DNA of 21,927 nt from a virus, in IMG/VR virus record IMGVR_UViG_3300035698_014777, positions 1 to 21,927 of that record. One strand, given 5' to 3'. Positions 11,730-21,927 of this stretch are shown piece by piece; the first letter of the stretch is position 1, and every line of letters starts with the position of its first letter. Position numbers and translations under genes: made by a program. Below the pieces are notes generated by a model. That model saw nothing but the letters and a program-made list of their open reading frames with translations, was not told the DNA's origin and did not search any database.

Positions 11730-12103
11730 TAGTTCGAGAAATTATGGGAAGAGAACCAAAGCCATGTGATAAATGGTACAATCCACATAAATTATCACGT
11801 GCCTTTGGCGGTGACGTTGTTTCTATTACACACTTTATGCAACTAACGAGTATAACTGTGGATGAAAAATTATGGGTGTTATTACATCCCTCAATAATAG
11901 ATGAAAATGACCTGTCCGTTCTTATTACTAACATACTTGATGCAAACTATGTTGATGCTCCATATTACAAGGAGGCGTACACACAATTAAAACATGAGAG
12001 GTACTGGGGTGCTATCTATTTTGCTGCTCATGCCGTCTCTACTCTTTACGAACAAACATTATCTGCTGTAAAGGAGTATTTCAATGTCAACCGCTACATT
12101 TAG
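11714..12103 (+). CDS. Unknown late protein (129 aa)
   Basis: The likely ATG at 11714 has AGGA nine bases upstream and lies inside the end of the previous gene; a second in-frame ATG at 11744 is an alternative. The product mixes a charged N-terminus (MAREIVVREIMGREPKPCDKW) with a helical middle (DEKLWVLLHPSIIDENDLSV) and a C-terminal helix bundle (YWGAIYFAAHAVSTLYEQTL). It is compact, acidic to neutral, with no export signal. I do not recognise it. Its end overlaps the start of the giant fibre gene by 20 bases, so it could be an assembly partner or chaperone for that protein, a common gene order in phages, but this is inference from position. Confidence 0.55.
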   Translation: MAREIVVREIMGREPKPCDKWYNPHKLSRAFGGDVVSITHFMQLTSITVDEKLWVLLHPSIIDENDLSVLITNILDANYVDAPYYKEAYTQLKHERYWGAIYFAAHAVSTLYEQTLSAVKEYFNVNRYI

Positions 12104-15100
12104 ACCTTTATCCGATGGTACTTATTCTCAATGGACTGCTATAGGGGATCATTATCCATATGTAGATGATGGGGTTGATTGGGGGTCGTCCTCTGATTAT
12201 ACAGCACGTGGTGGCGGGGGGTTTAATACAGCTGCTGATACATTCGACTTTACTGTGTCTGGTGTAAGTGGTGTAGTTAATAGTGTTACAGTCCATTATG
12301 TTCTTTATCAGGACTCAACAGGTTCACCAGATGTATCTGGTTTTTTGTATTTAGATGGTAGTACTCTTAGTGACACTTTGCAAGATGTAGACGCATTAAC
12401 TACGTGGGAAGAAAAAACAACGGTTTTTAATCTTACTCCCGCTGGTAATTCTTGGACAGTTGCTTCTTTATCCGATTTAGAATTTGGGTATATAACGCTT
12501 GGTGGTTCATTTAAGACAAACACACGCCTAAATAGTACTTGGTTAAGTGTAGACTATACAAGTGCAGCAGGTAGTGTAAATGTAGCTCCCGCTTCTTTAC
12601 TTTGTGAGGGAACAACAGGTTTTAATAACGCATGCGCTATTCCAATTTTTAGCGCCATATTTAAGACCGAGTTCGTAATAGGTACAACGCATCAGTCATA
12701 TATAGAGATATGTGAAGGCACATCTAATTTTGACGTAATTTTTGCGTCTGGTTGGAACTCTTTTGCTTCTACTCAACAAGACACAAGATGTCCAAATATT
12801 TATTATGGAGTGGGTGGCACATGGAGTATTGGAACATTATATTCACATCCTACCTATTATTGGAGAATAAAGTTTATTAATGATGATGGTGGTACCTCAC
12901 CTACTAGCGCAATCGGACAGTTTTCTGGTATTAACAGATATTGGGTAAATGATGATTACATTTTTAGACGCAAGTTGCTATTTGGTAGTGCTCATGCTAC
13001 AATAACATCTGGGAGTACCGCAACATTTAGTATCAAAACAGGCAATCGTTTAATTATTGCACAAAATGGATGTTTCAATGAGTCAATTCAAGCATCTGGT
13101 GGGTTTAACTTGGCACGTTTTGATGCAAAGACTCATATCTCTTATTTAGCACAGCCACCACACACGGGCGAAAACAAAGGAAATTACGAAAATTGGATTA
13201 ACACCTTAGATTTATCTACTACGCCACCAGTGGTAGGTGAACCGCATAAAATATCTGACGCTGGTTCCCATTCAGATACCCATCACTATCCGTCCATATG
13301 TGTAGATAATGATGGTTACATTCATTGTTTTTTATCAAGACATCCAGGTGGGGTAAAGTACTTACGTTCATTTCAATCAAATATATCAGGTTGTCTTAGT
13401 GGCGAAGACACGGGTGCAACTTTATGGTTTAATCCCATAACCGAGGGTCTTGAGGAACACAGTGAAGGTGCGGGATTAACTTATCCAACGCCTTTTGTTG
13501 ACCCTATAACAAACTCAGTTATACTATTTAGTCGCTATAATGAAAATGAATACGTTTATTACACAGTAACAGATAACGGGGCAACTTGGAACGGCCCTTA
13601 CATTTTTATGACAGATGAACATGCAAACGGTGATCGTATATATTGTTACGGTCTACGAATGGACCGTGCAACCCGTCGAATGCATATAGGTTTTACACTA
13701 AACCATCGTGATACTGGTGACGCAGAAGAGCTCGAACGTGGTGTTTGGTATATGTATTCTGATTATGATTCAACTGGTACCACTACAATGCCATATAAGG
13801 ACTGGTATTACGCTAACGGTTCTTTAGCAGGTAAAACACATGATGGGTATTGGGGAGAAGAGCAGGTTTGTTATTTGAATAACACGGCTGCTGGTTGGGC
13901 TACAATGGTAAAGAGGGCGTTAATATTCACTGAACCGTGGGATGACACTGTTGCCCCACCTGGAACTCAGTATAATGCTCGTGCCTTTATTGAAAACTTA
14001 GAACTGGTTGGTTCTGACCCAGTTGTTTTTTGGGAACAGAAGGCTCGACCTGGTGAACCTGATGCAAAATACTCTGCTACGGGAGAAACCGATTTATTGT
14101 GTGCAAGGTACACAGCCGATATTGGGGATAACACAGGAAATTGGAAAATTAATCCAATAACCACTAATTTAGAAGGTCACGATAAAATGTTGCGGGTACG
14201 TCGTTCTGGTGTATCTGTTATGGGTGACATTGATGGATCATTGAGTGCATGGTTTCCAGTTGCCGGTCGAACACGTGGGTGGCGTCGTATTGGTACTAAG
14301 GATATAACGAGCTCTAATTGTACCGCTTCATCAGTTACGGGGTCGTTTCATAGTGCTATTGGCGGCGATATTTCATTAATTGATGGTGATGCCACAAGTG
14401 TTCCTATGTCTACTATAGATTGTTATTTTTCCGTTGGTAGTATAGAAAAACCAACATCAGACAAAACATTATTTGCGTTAGATATTGACGCTATAGTAAG
14501 GGCTGAATCGAATGCATCAGTACAACTTTTTATAAACAAAGGGGATACCGATACCTTCTCTGCTACCTTGAATATGTTTTGTACTGCTACTAAATTTGTC
14601 TACTACCGTTATTTACGTAATACATGGACCACTGATCCTTGGACAGACAATCCGTGGACAGCAACATCTATTGGCAGTCTTTCTTTCGGTATTAAATTGG
14701 TTGCCGGTGGTACCGTTCATGTGTCAAAACTCTATGCTAAAATGGAATATACTGTATCCTCAAACGGTGAGTGGACTGCTTCTGAGATGTGGAAAATTAA
14801 AAGTTATGATAAAGGGGATACGTGGGAAGTAACAGAACTTTCCAGAAATAGCCACATTGGTGTCCCTATGATGTCTCAGAAACCTTGGCTGTCTAGTGAC
14901 CAACAAGAAGTGTCTTGGACATCTGGTTCTGATGTATTTTATTCATATGATGCACCCTACGGATTGGTAGACTATTCTGGACAAGATTTTAAGGTGTACT
15001 ATGGTACAACTGAGATTGACAGAGTAGCTGATTATTTTAATAACAATGGTTCAGAGGTTTCTTTTAAGCTACAGGAAGATATCTGTAAAGATAAAATGGC

Positions 15101-18100
15101 GGATCGTTACGGAGATTATTACATTTATTTTGGTAATAAAGATGAGATAACCAAACCATTATCTGCTCCAGCAAGTGTTTTTCACTACTTTCAAAACTTT
15201 GAGTCTCTGATTGATGGGCAAGATGTTTCTGAACTGGATGATGGCTATGTTACAATTAGTGGTGATGTGGAAGCCTACAGGTCACCAAAACAACATTCAA
15301 ATAAAGTTTATGCAGGACACGTTAGTGCTTCTTTAACAAACTCAGAAATTGATTTTGACTTTCCTACACTGAATGGCGGTGTTGTAGAATTTGCATATTG
15401 GCAAGAAACAAATGCGCCTGCTTGGACGTATTTAAGTGCAAATTTAAGTAAAATTACCACTGGTGGTTTTTTGTTACAAGACCCATCTAACTATGAGTAT
15501 ATACAGGATAAACAAGGGGGTGCCTTTAACGGGGTACTCACAGTAAACCCAGTCTACAGCACAGGCAAACAAATGTTGTTGCTAAAATACCATCACACAC
15601 TTGATGGTAGTGATTCCCATTGGGTTAATAAAGTACCGATAACATATGAACGACATACTAATGCTGCCTTAGGCTCTCTTGTTTCGTTCAAGGTGGACAC
15701 AAACGGGGCACACATATTCACAGACTATATTAAAGTGTGCAAAAGTTCAGAACATGCCTTAAATTATTACAACAGAGCCATCACACATCCAACCTTATCA
15801 GGTGATAGGTATTTAGGAACTATCCAAAAGTATATTGCTTTCCATCGTACTGTTGCAACAATTAAATTTGACCCTATTTATGACGCTTACCAAAATGGGT
15901 TGGATGTAACACAGTTAGAAACATCTAGAATAGCATACAAAATTAAATACGATATGGATAACTATGGCTCTGTCCCAGTAACTTTCAACATCAAAACATG
16001 GGTGTCTAATACGGTTACTTATAATAGTGCTTCTGTTATTGCTTCTATCGAAGTTGAGTGTACAACACACACTTTAGCGTTAGATAAGTATTTAATTGGT
16101 ACTGTATTAAATACTGATCTCTACGACAATTTATCAATGAAAGTTAGTTGTGACGCTGCAACGGCAGATGGCGGGTATTTAGATATTTCGTTGTGGGAAG
16201 TGGAGGTCTATAATAAATCTGCTTTACATAGTCAGGTAACAATTGGTACGTTAGAGGTTCGGGGTTTGTATGGTGATATTTCATTACAGGGCGCAGGTCG
16301 ATCTCAAATTTGGGGAATGCTGTATGTAAATGGTTATAAATACAGGTACTTTAGCGGTATCCCATTAAGTCAAGAGACCGGTCTTCTCTACACTGGCTCA
16401 TCTTATCCTGAGTACACTAAAAAAATAGTGACTGCACCTTCAGTTCATGCGGAAGCTGTTGGGTACCATACTTCTAGTATGAAGTCGCAAACTGAGTTTC
16501 AAATGGGTGTACTGCATAGTTCACTACTTCCGTTATCATATTTCGGGAAAGTTGAATATATAAATGCTGTTATGACCGAACAGATGGCAATTGAAAACAT
16601 CGCACTCAATATACCGCTTGAATACACTCTGTTGAAAGATGAAAGTATTAATGTACCCATTAGCATGACTGAGGGTATTGAGTTTAAGGGGGCTATACCA
16701 GTTGGGTATCAACAGTTAGTTCCTGTTTATATTTCTAACAGCCCTGTTGATAACATTTCAGGACGTTCAATTGGGTATACAACTAATGTTGAAACTGGTA
16801 GTGGTGTTATTAGCGCACAAGTTATACCTCTTAATTTCTTATCGGGTGCTATATATCGAGATACATTGTTGGTTGGGTACATGGCAGGTGTTTCCGAAAA
16901 ACTACAACAACGAGTAGGATACACTAAAGCAGGTACTATTAGTGGTAACATACCAGCTGGCAACGAGTTAGGTATAGTGCTTAGTGTTGATACACCAGTT
17001 GAAGCACTGCAATTACAAGACATTACTAGTCGTGCCAATATTGAAACTAACCAAAATATAGAAGAGCTACAACTAACTAATGTTGAAACTGGCAGTGGTG
17101 TTGTTGATGTGCACACTGTTCCTCATAGTTTTCTAGAGGGGGTTGCACACAAAAGCATATTGTTAGTTGAAGATGTGGCAAAAGTAGCAGACAGATTGCA
17201 ACAACAAGTAGAGTACACTAAAGCAAACGTTATTAACGATAATATACCAGTTGGGGATGAGTTAGGAGTTGCAATTAATGCAGACACACCAGTTGAGGTA
17301 ATACAAATACAAAATATTATCAACACTGTTGATATTAAAACGCTATTAAATATAGAGGAAACACAACAAACCCCTATTAATACTGGTATTGGTTTTGATG
17401 AAAGCCAGAAGGTACCAGTCTTTCTCCCTATCGGATTGGTTGCACCAAATTCCATGCCAGCCGGGGTGTCGAGTTCGGTAGTTGAAATTGCTAAAGGTAT
17501 TATACCAATAGACTATAGTAAAATAGTTGAATTCAAGAAGTCAACACCTGTTTCATACGAACGTGGGTATACCACGTCACATAAAATACCTTCTGGGATA
17601 CAAGAAGGAATAATAGATACCAATGAATTGAGTACAGAATTTGTTTCTGGTACTGATATTCCTGTCTCCTCTCCTGTTGAGAGTGGTGTAGGAATGGTTG
17701 AATCTGTGTTACTTCCGTTGTTTATACCTGTTGGTGTCAGGTCCGGAAACGGTATTCCAATAGAGGTGTTTAGTTCAGTCGTAGAAGTTTGCAAGGGTGT
17801 GATACCTGTAGACTTTTTACAGACGTCATCATTTGTAGAAACGATACCGATTGATTATCTACAAAAAATTTCAGGGTATACTAATATCTATTTTGAAGCA
17901 CTACGTGACGTCGAATCAGGAGGACAAACATTAGTAGAAATTAATGAGGAGTTGGAAGAAACATCTACAACCCCATTAGACCTTCTGGTGAGTTTTTCCG
18001 AAGAACTAAGTAGTTATACTGAGTTTTTAACTGGTCTCAGTATTGGTGGAAAGTCACCTGTTGAGTATACAACCTCGGCGGTTGCGCTATTAACGTCTGG

Positions 18101-18449
18101 TAATATGCCCATAGAAACGATTAAAACTGTAGAGTGGGTTAACCGAGCATTAATTGAACAGTTGAGAGATGTTGAAGTACCACATAAAATTGTGGTAGAT
18201 AATGTTTCAGGCGTTGGTGTAACTGTTAGTGTTTTAATTGATGTTTTAGCGGGTGTGTCTTTCACACCTTTAATTTCTTTTCCAATAGAGGTACTACGTG
18301 GTGAATTAATTAAAGCTGGATTACCTGTTGATTTTACCGGAGTTGCAGTTATTACGAGAAAAATATTGGCCAGGTACTTTCAATTAACACGCAGTACAAT
18401 TAATCAGGTGTCACTCGATAATAGTATAACAAGAATGATTAAACCCTAA
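12084..18449 (+). CDS. Giant multidomain tail fibre/spike with BNR_4-like propeller
   Basis: This 2121-residue protein starts at ATG 12084 with AAAGGAG upstream. Domains in order, by eye: beta jelly-roll (1-167); fibronectin-III-like module with YYWRIKFIND (about 168-282); a probable BNR_4-type beta propeller (about 295-735) with the family-like DTHHYPSICVDNDGYIHCF at H400-H401 and DNGATWNGPYIF; a second jelly-roll resembling the first (about 740-892), with Trp repeats WTTDPWTDNPW; a DUF2341-like segment (about 955-1040) ending YYIYFGN; a LamG-like sandwich (1045-1235); another beta domain (1245-1390); then about 630 residues of short IP-type repeats, including 98-100 residue tandem units. 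BNR_4 propellers occur in polysaccharide lyases, so host glycan binding or cleavage is likely. The lack of long coiled coils or membrane segments argues against a tape measure. Confidence 0.8.
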   Translation: MSTATFRPLSDGTYSQWTAIGDHYPYVDDGVDWGSSSDYTARGGGGFNTAADTFDFTVSGVSGVVNSVTVHYVLYQDSTGSPDVSGFLYLDGSTLSDTLQDVDALTTWEEKTTVFNLTPAGNSWTVASLSDLEFGYITLGGSFKTNTRLNSTWLSVDYTSAAGSVNVAPASLLCEGTTGFNNACAIPIFSAIFKTEFVIGTTHQSYIEICEGTSNFDVIFASGWNSFASTQQDTRCPNIYYGVGGTWSIGTLYSHPTYYWRIKFINDDGGTSPTSAIGQFSGINRYWVNDDYIFRRKLLFGSAHATITSGSTATFSIKTGNRLIIAQNGCFNESIQASGGFNLARFDAKTHISYLAQPPHTGENKGNYENWINTLDLSTTPPVVGEPHKISDAGSHSDTHHYPSICVDNDGYIHCFLSRHPGGVKYLRSFQSNISGCLSGEDTGATLWFNPITEGLEEHSEGAGLTYPTPFVDPITNSVILFSRYNENEYVYYTVTDNGATWNGPYIFMTDEHANGDRIYCYGLRMDRATRRMHIGFTLNHRDTGDAEELERGVWYMYSDYDSTGTTTMPYKDWYYANGSLAGKTHDGYWGEEQVCYLNNTAAGWATMVKRALIFTEPWDDTVAPPGTQYNARAFIENLELVGSDPVVFWEQKARPGEPDAKYSATGETDLLCARYTADIGDNTGNWKINPITTNLEGHDKMLRVRRSGVSVMGDIDGSLSAWFPVAGRTRGWRRIGTKDITSSNCTASSVTGSFHSAIGGDISLIDGDATSVPMSTIDCYFSVGSIEKPTSDKTLFALDIDAIVRAESNASVQLFINKGDTDTFSATLNMFCTATKFVYYRYLRNTWTTDPWTDNPWTATSIGSLSFGIKLVAGGTVHVSKLYAKMEYTVSSNGEWTASEMWKIKSYDKGDTWEVTELSRNSHIGVPMMSQKPWLSSDQQEVSWTSGSDVFYSYDAPYGLVDYSGQDFKVYYGTTEIDRVADYFNNNGSEVSFKLQEDICKDKMADRYGDYYIYFGNKDEITKPLSAPASVFHYFQNFESLIDGQDVSELDDGYVTISGDVEAYRSPKQHSNKVYAGHVSASLTNSEIDFDFPTLNGGVVEFAYWQETNAPAWTYLSANLSKITTGGFLLQDPSNYEYIQDKQGGAFNGVLTVNPVYSTGKQMLLLKYHHTLDGSDSHWVNKVPITYERHTNAALGSLVSFKVDTNGAHIFTDYIKVCKSSEHALNYYNRAITHPTLSGDRYLGTIQKYIAFHRTVATIKFDPIYDAYQNGLDVTQLETSRIAYKIKYDMDNYGSVPVTFNIKTWVSNTVTYNSASVIASIEVECTTHTLALDKYLIGTVLNTDLYDNLSMKVSCDAATADGGYLDISLWEVEVYNKSALHSQVTIGTLEVRGLYGDISLQGAGRSQIWGMLYVNGYKYRYFSGIPLSQETGLLYTGSSYPEYTKKIVTAPSVHAEAVGYHTSSMKSQTEFQMGVLHSSLLPLSYFGKVEYINAVMTEQMAIENIALNIPLEYTLLKDESINVPISMTEGIEFKGAIPVGYQQLVPVYISNSPVDNISGRSIGYTTNVETGSGVISAQVIPLNFLSGAIYRDTLLVGYMAGVSEKLQQRVGYTKAGTISGNIPAGNELGIVLSVDTPVEALQLQDITSRANIETNQNIEELQLTNVETGSGVVDVHTVPHSFLEGVAHKSILLVEDVAKVADRLQQQVEYTKANVINDNIPVGDELGVAINADTPVEVIQIQNIINTVDIKTLLNIEETQQTPINTGIGFDESQKVPVFLPIGLVAPNSMPAGVSSSVVEIAKGIIPIDYSKIVEFKKSTPVSYERGYTTSHKIPSGIQEGIIDTNELSTEFVSGTDIPVSSPVESGVGMVESVLLPLFIPVGVRSGNGIPIEVFSSVVEVCKGVIPVDFLQTSSFVETIPIDYLQKISGYTNIYFEALRDVESGGQTLVEINEELEETSTTPLDLLVSFSEELSSYTEFLTGLSIGGKSPVEYTTSAVALLTSGNMPIETIKTVEWVNRALIEQLRDVEVPHKIVVDNVSGVGVTVSVLIDVLAGVSFTPLISFPIEVLRGELIKAGLPVDFTGVAVITRKILARYFQLTRSTINQVSLDNSITRMIKP
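16785..17972 (+). repeat. Tandem 98-100 residue units inside the fibre C-terminus
   Basis: Units begin at 16785 (residue 1568), 17079 (1666), 17373 (1764) and about 17673 (1864), spaced 294, 294 and 300 bases. The first two are clearly duplicates: NVETGSGV opens both and IEELQLT aligns with IEETQQT near the end. Units three and four match each other over about 70 residues (SSSVVEIAKGIIPIDYSK against FSSVVEVCKGVIPVDFLQ). Units one/two and three/four are more distant but share the phase and the small motif (I/V)P(V/I/L)-x-(Y/F). Within units this motif recurs roughly every 14-16 residues. The end of unit four is approximate. Confidence 0.8.
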
Positions 18450-19508: not shown

Positions 19509-19513
19509 ATCTG

Positions 19514-19541
19514 AAGTAGCCCTTAATTGGGCTACTTTTAT
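19514..19541 (+). terminator. Rho-independent terminator
   Basis: A nine-base perfect stem, AAGTAGCCC (19514-19522) and GGGCTACTT (19529-19537), with a six-base loop TTAATT, runs into TTTTATT. It lies six bases after the stop of the 346-residue virion gene and just before the ribosome binding site of the beta-helix gene, so it should end or reduce transcription of the main late operon here and lower expression of the two exported proteins downstream. Confidence 0.85.
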
Positions 19542-19553
19542 TAAGGAGTATAA

Positions 19554-21380
19554 ATGTCTTTTTCTAAGTACGTGATGTGCTTGTTAATGATCATTCTTTT
19601 TGCAGCTACTAATGCAAGTGCCACAAATTATTATGTTTCAGAGTCCGGTGATAACACTACCGGGCTCTCTTGGTCAACAGCATTTACACACCCAAATACG
19701 TTAACAGCAAATGTTAGTGGTGGAGACACATCATTTATCGGTATATCTCTTTGGATGGATTGCTTTATTGAAACGCCGTCAGGTGGCACACTTACAGCAC
19801 CAACGGTTTACATTTGTTCCACATCTGTTGTTGATGGTTCAATTGGTAAACCACGTTTATACGCATGTGAAGAGGTAACTGGTTGGACTGTGGCCGATGG
19901 TAATGCAGGGGATACAATATATAGGTCTACTTATATTACTAATTACCCGTACGCTGTTAATACACCATACCCAGATAGTAACATCAATTTGTGTGCAATT
20001 GTAATGCCTGATGACACTGTTATTTTAGAAACCAGACATTTAGTTTGGGATTCATCAGAGGTTTCCGCTTGTGACGGAATAACAGTGTTAAATTGGACAC
20101 GAAATGTAAAAAATGATGACTCTACTTTTATGCATTGGTACGACTCTGCTTCTGGTGCTCTTTATATTAATCCACCAACTGACGATTTTCTTTCTGCGGG
20201 GCATAAGGTATTTGTTTCAACACATCCTGTATTTTTAACCTCTAATGGAAATAACCATGTTTATATACGTGGACTAAGAATGGGGTTTGCGAAACAAGCC
20301 TCTGTACATTTAAGAGGCAGGGCTGATAGTTGCGAGATAACAGATTGTGTTATGGAATACACATGTGGTGAAATAGGCGAGAATACAACTGCTGGTGTAC
20401 ATACTAACAATATTTTTCCTGACCACAAAACCCGTATCCTAATTGCACGGGATACAATTAGGCAATCACGTGGTGGAATTGGGTGGGCTTCCGGCGGAGC
20501 TGGATACAAGTCATATCGCAATAATAACTACTGTACTATGACAGAAAATAGTTACGAACACACGGGTTCCGGATGTATGTTGTATGCTGCGACAGATGTT
20601 ATTGTAGAGTATTGTCTCTTTGAAGAATTACACGGTACGGGAGTGTACTTAAAAAATTCAGGCGATCTTAATGACAGTTTAGAATTTGTAGCACGTTTTA
20701 ATACGTTTAGAGAAAATGGTAAGTATGATGGACCAAATAATGGAATGGATGGTTCTGGTAATGGTATTTGTATAGGGTACCGTAATTACGCTTGTTCTAT
20801 CTATGCTAACATATTCGACCATCAAGCTGGCGCTGGTATTGCTCTTGCGTACCAACATAGCGTAGGATATGAACACGGCCACCATTGGATAGCATTTAAC
20901 AATTTTGTACGTATGGGTACGGCTATTTGGACAGTTACAGGTGCTTCATACAAAGAGGCGGATGATTATAGTTACATTATGTACAATATTATGTACGACT
21001 ACATGTGTCCACCTTACAATGGTTATTTAGGTTGCGGTTATTGGGGGACGTATCAAAATACAGACATTAATCAAGACAAAATAGACTATAACATTTGGTG
21101 GGATGGAGGTTCTGATAATTTATGGTATCCACATGGTGGTCCCGCTGGACAAAATTTTGCTGCATGGCAGTCTGATGGATTTGACGTACATGGTTCTGAG
21201 TCGAATCCTAACTTTACTGACACAACGATTAATTGGGCTAGAAGTTCTTATACTGAACTTAGTACACCAATAGCAGTTGATGTTGGTGATTCAATAGTCT
21301 ATTTTATTACTCAAGGTGTTTGGCAGCCTGATTATACACCGTCGAGTACTAGTAGTAGAGTTAGAATAAGGAAAAATTAA
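19554..21380 (+). CDS. Exported right-handed beta-helix protein, tailspike or polysaccharide lyase-like
   Basis: The 608-residue product starts at ATG 19554, with AAGGAG eight bases upstream and immediately after a terminator. It begins with a convincing Sec signal peptide: K5, a hydrophobic core (VMCLLMIILFAAT), and an A-x-A site NASA|T after residue 23. The mature start (NYYVSESGDNTTGLSWSTAF) is the usual N-cap of pectate-lyase-like parallel beta-helices. Residues about 210-480 show the repeating turns of such a helix (VYIRGLRMGF, CEITDCVMEY, ILIARDTIRQSR, VIVEYCLFEELHGTGVYL, FVARFNTFREN, CSIYANIFDHQAGAGIAL, IAFNNFVRMGTAI). It has more than a dozen cysteines, fitting export and disulfides. 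It could be a surface-glycan depolymerase secreted by the infected or lysogenised cell, or a spike. Catalytic residues cannot be assigned. Confidence 0.8.
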   Translation: MSFSKYVMCLLMIILFAATNASATNYYVSESGDNTTGLSWSTAFTHPNTLTANVSGGDTSFIGISLWMDCFIETPSGGTLTAPTVYICSTSVVDGSIGKPRLYACEEVTGWTVADGNAGDTIYRSTYITNYPYAVNTPYPDSNINLCAIVMPDDTVILETRHLVWDSSEVSACDGITVLNWTRNVKNDDSTFMHWYDSASGALYINPPTDDFLSAGHKVFVSTHPVFLTSNGNNHVYIRGLRMGFAKQASVHLRGRADSCEITDCVMEYTCGEIGENTTAGVHTNNIFPDHKTRILIARDTIRQSRGGIGWASGGAGYKSYRNNNYCTMTENSYEHTGSGCMLYAATDVIVEYCLFEELHGTGVYLKNSGDLNDSLEFVARFNTFRENGKYDGPNNGMDGSGNGICIGYRNYACSIYANIFDHQAGAGIALAYQHSVGYEHGHHWIAFNNFVRMGTAIWTVTGASYKEADDYSYIMYNIMYDYMCPPYNGYLGCGYWGTYQNTDINQDKIDYNIWWDGGSDNLWYPHGGPAGQNFAAWQSDGFDVHGSESNPNFTDTTINWARSSYTELSTPIAVDVGDSIVYFITQGVWQPDYTPSSTSSRVRIRKN

Positions 21381-21927
21381 ATGTGGAAATATATTGTAGT
21401 ATTAATTATCACAACTATTTTAGTTGCTAGTTTTGCTTTTCCAATTAACGTTCGCCCTGGTACCGATGTAACAATACCAGTATACAGTGAATTAGCAGAT
21501 GGTACAGTCATTGTTCCAGACTCTATGCGTATGCAGGTTTATTATGAAGGAACTGAAGTATTTGATGCGTGGTTTAATAGCGCCGATGCTGAATGTGCTG
21601 TTGATGATGTTAATTTAATATTTCATGATGTTTTTGGTGATATAGATGGCGCTGGTGGAGAAGGACAATACCTTATTATTGCCACTGCGTATGATAGTAG
21701 TACAAAAAAATTAACACCTTTTTATTCCAACTATGAAGTGGGCTTATTTGATTCTCTTTTAGCAGGTGCTTCTGTGTCAGATGTTTATGACGAGTTTGTG
21801 GATGGTACTAATGAGGATGCATTTAAGGCAACAGGTTTTTCTACTCATGATCCAGCCGGAGTTTACACTGAGTTTGTGGATGGTACTAATGAGGATGAGT
21901 TCAAAGCTGATGTGTCTGGAGTAAGTA
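21381..21927 (+). CDS. Partial exported fibre-like protein with 26-residue repeats
   Basis: This frame starts at ATG 21381, directly after the TAA of the beta-helix gene, with AAGGAA upstream, and is open for 182 codons to the window end. The N-terminus (MWKYIVVLIITTILVASFAF) is a probable signal peptide with cleavage near SFA|F. Mature residues begin with a beta-rich region (PINVRPGTDVTIPVYSELAD) that resembles small Ig-like tail modules, then YLIIATAYDSSTKKLTPFY, and finally two repeats built on EFVDGTNEDxFKA at about residues 138-150 and 164-176. Such D-G-[TS]-N-E-D-x-F-K-A units recur in phage fibre proteins before coiled coils. The C-terminal part is outside the window, so function cannot be stated. 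Confidence 0.7.
   Translation, partial: MWKYIVVLIITTILVASFAFPINVRPGTDVTIPVYSELADGTVIVPDSMRMQVYYEGTEVFDAWFNSADAECAVDDVNLIFHDVFGDIDGAGGEGQYLIIATAYDSSTKKLTPFYSNYEVGLFDSLLAGASVSDVYDEFVDGTNEDAFKATGFSTHDPAGVYTEFVDGTNEDEFKADVSGVS
21792..21897 (+). repeat. Direct repeat, 28 bp perfect, 78 bp period
   Basis: The 28 bases at 21792-21819 recur exactly at 21870-21897 (both begin GAGTTTGTGGATGG and continue to GAGGATG). The spacing of 78 bases equals 26 codons, so the protein repeats in frame. Identity at the DNA level, including third positions, suggests a recent duplication or ongoing recombination. More copies may follow beyond the window. Confidence 0.85.

Follow-up and report, generated by a model that had tools for sequence, protein, structure and literature searches.

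Tailed phages are taken to assemble their tail spikes and fibres in the cytoplasm. Among the described systems closest to the locus considered here are the beta-helix tail spikes and capsule depolymerases of phages, the secreted beta-helix proteins of bacteria, and GTAs such as RcGTA (PMC10218006, PMC10883770). The fibres of RcGTA bind capsule (PMC10218006), which shows that particles of the GTA type can rely on polysaccharide at the cell surface.

The locus comprises the last two genes, A and B, of a 21,927-base virus fragment, the whole of which was analysed and is referred to as the window. Gene A resembles phage tail spikes and depolymerases in its beta-helix family match and its late-gene position, but differs from them in carrying a signal peptide, in having no recognised head-binding or catalytic family, and in that its closest relatives are secreted host proteins. 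Those host proteins (e.g. L103:4544-7645) share with A a signal peptide and a homologous beta-helix, but are longer, bear F5/8-type C, fn3 or FlgD-like C-terminal domains that A does not have, and are encoded in chromosomal polysaccharide-synthesis loci. The likeness to GTAs is that chromosomal relatives of the pair lie in a phage-derived, apparently vertically inherited head cluster; it applies to that cluster and not to the window phage, and the cluster differs from GTAs in ending in signal-peptide proteins and in having no recognised tail genes. The features of the locus are as follows.

19513..19538, + strand: terminator-like hairpin with a 10-bp stem and a weak U-tract, lying between A and the late gene before it (z -5.2 and -16.6 kcal/mol on folding)
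19543..19548, + strand: AAGGAG ribosome-binding site of A, read from the sequence
19554..21380, + strand: gene A (G1 of the pair), predicted exported protein of 608 aa with a right-handed beta-helix and 16 Cys
19554..19622, + strand: Sec signal peptide predicted for A, with the cut following NASA (at residue 23 by the signal-peptide rule; helix at residues 3-19 in an otherwise unusable model)
20361..20861, + strand: Pfam-matched beta-helix region of A (residues 270-436)
21368..21372, + strand: AAGGA ribosome-binding site of B, within the end of A, read from the sequence
21381..21926, + strand: gene B (G2 of the pair), predicted exported fibre-like protein, 182 aa, cut by the contig end
21381..21437, + strand: predicted Sec signal peptide of B, cut read after SFA (residue 16 by the rule; residue 19, between SFA and F, by eye)
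21441..21746, + strand: conserved Ig-like N-terminal domain of B, with motifs FDAWFNSAD and FGDIDG (AlphaFold pLDDT 62)
21783..21926, + strand: start of the tandem fibre-type repeats of B (VYDEFVDGTNEDAFKA), read from the translation

The N-terminus of A reads MSFSKYVMCLLMIILFAATNASA up to the predicted cut and TNYY beyond it, and that of B MWKYIVVLIITTILVASFA and then FPIN; each has n-, h- and c-regions and an AXA-type site, and the positive n-region, hydrophobic h-region and AXA site of type I signal peptides are present in both. A rule that asks for an n-region charge that is not negative, an uncharged h-region and an AXA-like cut, and that 2% of random internal 45-mers pass by chance, is passed by A and B alone among the 19 window genes. 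It is likewise passed by 33 of 37 relatives of B and by 25 of 30 complete upstream partners, as against 9 of 123 other same-strand upstream genes of the same loci, and the failures mostly reflect an over-long start call or a charge that follows the h-region, the N-terminus still being hydrophobic by eye (L059 excepted). This conservation across very divergent relatives is the strongest support for export. The claim of a sequence-only reading that both proteins carry Sec signal peptides thus stands, and their export by the Sec pathway is well supported by sequence. Together with the occurrence of the same exported pair in other phages and in a chromosomal cluster, the export signals make it probable that A and B work outside the cytoplasm, in contrast to ordinary tail spikes.

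Gene A is indeed cysteine-rich, as that reading had it, its 16 residues (2.6%) being the highest content among 14 window genes counted. Its match to the Pfam family Beta_helix (PF13229, 2.9e-7) is over the curated cut-off and generic, and the beta-helix is followed by a short basic tail ending in SSTSSRVRIRKN. No relatives of A were found in IMG/VR and phage records, no convincing match or solved relative in the PDB, and no type IX secretion sorting domain in the protein, the FlgD-like C-terminal region of the host relatives being missing. For the proposal that the pair are surface enzymes no catalytic family came to light: comparison with lyase families (PL1, PL6 and others) gave no Pfam lyase match for A, whose fold model (pLDDT 30) is unusable, nor did A match a hydrolase family, and no active site was found for A or for G1. 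A may still be an enzyme; B, with its Ig-like domain and repeats, is fibre-like and not an enzyme. The stop codon of A directly adjoins the ATG of B, with no gap, and no relatives of B were found in phage records. The intrinsic terminator said to precede A is borne out as a real hairpin, but its UUUAUU tail is weak and it is absent from the listing of a consensus terminator scan.

Upstream in the window are a terminase (Terminase_6N 7e-5, PHROG 6e-10) with no relatives in IMG/VR, a portal (PHROG 1e-14) and a 2121-aa BNR-type protein; defence-system models gave no match. On the opposite strand (542-2656, - strand) is a 704-aa protein of two domains, a GT9-type and a GT1-type glycosyltransferase. 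The sole relative of B found in IMG/VR is in an unrelated phage (L002) with a gene that is integrase-like by eye, where a putative holin and a weak match to an endolysin are followed by a signal-peptide gene, the B-type gene and an OmpA lipoprotein. The gene for that OmpA-type lipoprotein lies directly 3' of the exported pair (13574-14137). A relaxed motif scan for further relatives of B gave pattern matches due to chance, apart from the known contig L003.

A MAG labelled Calditrichota yielded a B-type locus (L004), and a profile search placed the N-terminal domain of B in 35 of 132 genomes of that MAG's phylum, which is little studied, one match being on a circular 64-kb contig. That contig (G047:C327; loci L049, L050, L101 and L102) has 64,242 bases and a 141-base end repeat, is taken as circular, and is probably a complete myophage-like genome: by eye it carries tail-sheath-like and baseplate-J-like genes, with the pair between spike-like and baseplate genes. 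It has in common with the window the 10879, 12084 and 18468 proteins (E 7e-20, 2e-69 and 7e-54), but its terminase and portal are unrelated to those of the window, a pattern indicating that the late genes move as a cassette. From these shared late proteins, the host of the window phage is probably also a member of this phylum. The 12084 protein as query led to one distant phage, in which the stretch read does not contain the pair.

Repeated rounds of searching brought the B-type genes to 38, with one locus counted twice, and the pair is found in three settings: the window phage, the G047 circular contig and a chromosomal head cluster. The partner genes are mostly 0 to 29 nt apart. G2 is built of a conserved N-terminal domain, Ig-like by prediction at modest confidence (pLDDT 62), and then a variable middle, several chromosomal members having CarboxypepD_reg-like domains. 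G1 is highly variable and mostly without a family match, and the upstream proteins of L002, L004 and the window show no mutual similarity beyond a basic C-terminus. In the chromosomal clusters, 28 of 30 G1 members, which have little else in common, finish with an Arg-rich motif (RRR plus 3-15 residues), of which A of the window has a weaker form, RVRIRK. The motif is rare in the cluster's other proteins (5 of 25 for the 97-aa protein and at most 2 elsewhere). This C-terminus is possibly a docking or sorting signal.

The chromosomal cluster runs from portal and terminase through several small genes, a decoration-like protein, the major head protein and a BNR-type protein to 270-aa, 124-aa and 97-aa proteins, G1, G2, a small membrane protein and host genes. 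The PHROG matches of its portal, terminase and major head protein are 2e-19, 1e-34 and 2e-66, respectively, and no tail or fibre genes were recognised in it. The small membrane protein, often directly after G2, is holin-like by appearance only. The host flank comprises a dockerin-like secreted protein, lipoyl synthase, an HD-GYP regulator and a site-2 protease. In most of the genomes with B-type genes the pair forms the end of such a cluster of portal, terminase and capsid genes. Head genes and host flank, whole or partial, are present in many of the fetched loci, the remainder being hidden by short contigs, and the flank is missing in a few (G116, G117 and G118). The cluster occupies one chromosomal place in many species (L004, L051, L057/L058, L061/L074, L062, L063, L064, L065, L066, L072, L078, L079, L082 and others).

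Distances compared with those of the flanking HD-GYP gene gave r 0.95 for the capsid (n 9) and 0.97 for the BNR protein (n 10), and 0.74 and 0.65 for G2 and G1; dN/dS lay between 0.05 and 0.08 in the capsid gene, and was 0.07-0.29 in G2 and 0.07-0.23 in G1. Co-divergence with the host flank and purifying selection are the signature of a domesticated head cluster, and the chromosomal cluster is thus apparently GTA-like and vertically inherited. Vertically inherited phage structural genes, a conserved site and purifying selection, which are among the marks of a GTA, are found here together, and the portal-terminase-capsid cluster is a candidate for an undescribed GTA-like element; neither GTA-like clusters in this phylum nor signal peptides in phage fibres were found in the open-licence literature.

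Of 129 genomes of the phylum, 15 encode homologs of A that are secreted beta-helix proteins, the best at 30% identity over residues 12-593. At the three host loci read, glycosyltransferase (by eye), MBOAT, GDSL, flippase or VanZ genes adjoin. The host proteins of L103, L104 and L105, of 856-1810 aa, lie among polysaccharide-synthesis genes. That the relatives of A are secreted and that their loci have this setting fits an action of A on surface glycan.

The reading that we favour, as somewhat probable, is that A and B form a conserved two-gene module whose products, exported by Sec from the cell that makes the particles and directed at its envelope or polysaccharide, have a part in release or attachment. 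The particles made by that cell would be phage or phage-like. G2 (B) would be elongated, its N-terminal domain Ig-like and conserved, and G1 (A) would be its variable partner, which in the window has a beta-helix like those that the host phylum secretes. The two may act jointly at the cell envelope or on surface polysaccharide, complex, target and role all being putative; they might loosen or coat polysaccharide such that particles leave without re-binding, or might be adhesins freed at lysis. Signal peptides, constant pairing, near-abutting genes, purifying selection in the chromosomal relatives and the homology of A to secreted host proteins all argue for this module, as do the presence of the pair in an unrelated phage, a circular myophage-like contig and chromosomal head clusters, the MBOAT, flippase, glycosyltransferase or VanZ genes beside three host loci, the small membrane protein often found after G2, and the position of the L002 pair after a presumed lysis region. 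Against it are the failure to find an enzymatic family or an active site in A or in G1, and the absence from A of the C-terminal domains of its host relatives, which leaves periplasm, outer surface and medium all as candidate destinations; the location of the G047 pair inside baseplate genes also fits a virion part.

The main rival, a serious contender although we consider it unlikely, is an appendage that is exported and becomes part of the particles after lysis: G1 and G2 would stay in the periplasm and attach to capsids or tails once the inner membrane is breached, so that fibres would be assembled outside the cytoplasm. The fibre-like character of G2, the fast, modular variation of G1, which is like that of receptor-binding proteins, the chromosomal head cluster without a recognised tail or fibre gene, and the baseplate neighbours of the pair in the G047 phage all accord with it. 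The docking is a candidate step only, and the other fibre-like proteins of the window (12084-18449) have no signal peptides, which tells against it; we know of no precedent in tailed phages for exported fibres that dock onto particles. The earlier opposition of surface proteins to virion parts is not supported, since proteins that are exported might become part of particles after lysis all the same. A bolder reading, distinctly unlikely in our estimation, is that G1-G2 is an exported adhesin module that joins or serves particles only after lysis, one version of which forms part of a GTA-like head cluster, undescribed and inherited vertically, that many species of a single phylum have.

Modification of the host surface during infection or lysogeny, i.e. 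superinfection exclusion or conversion, with the proteins decorating or altering the surface glycan of the producing cell, appears quite improbable. Homologs of A do sit in polysaccharide clusters, the two-domain glycosyltransferase is also in the window, and an integrase and an OmpA lipoprotein are near the pair in L002; but the pair is located among late genes and is conserved in a vertically inherited head cluster, where there is no infection to exclude, and the superinfection block suggested from the sequence makes little sense for the same pair in that setting. An ordinary tail spike and fibre assembled in the cytoplasm, with hydrophobic N-termini that anchor them in the virion in place of signal peptides, is very improbable indeed: late position, fibre-like sequence and the 2% chance pass rate of the rule are in its favour, but dozens of divergent relatives of the two genes retain the signal-peptide character, which other cluster genes mostly lack, and the homologs of A are secreted proteins.

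A conserved, exported, fibre-like late pair, present in phages and, in one bacterial phylum, in a head cluster that seems vertically inherited, would suggest a little-known envelope-directed step in the release or attachment of particles, and the chromosomal cluster makes the question testable in any cultured relative.
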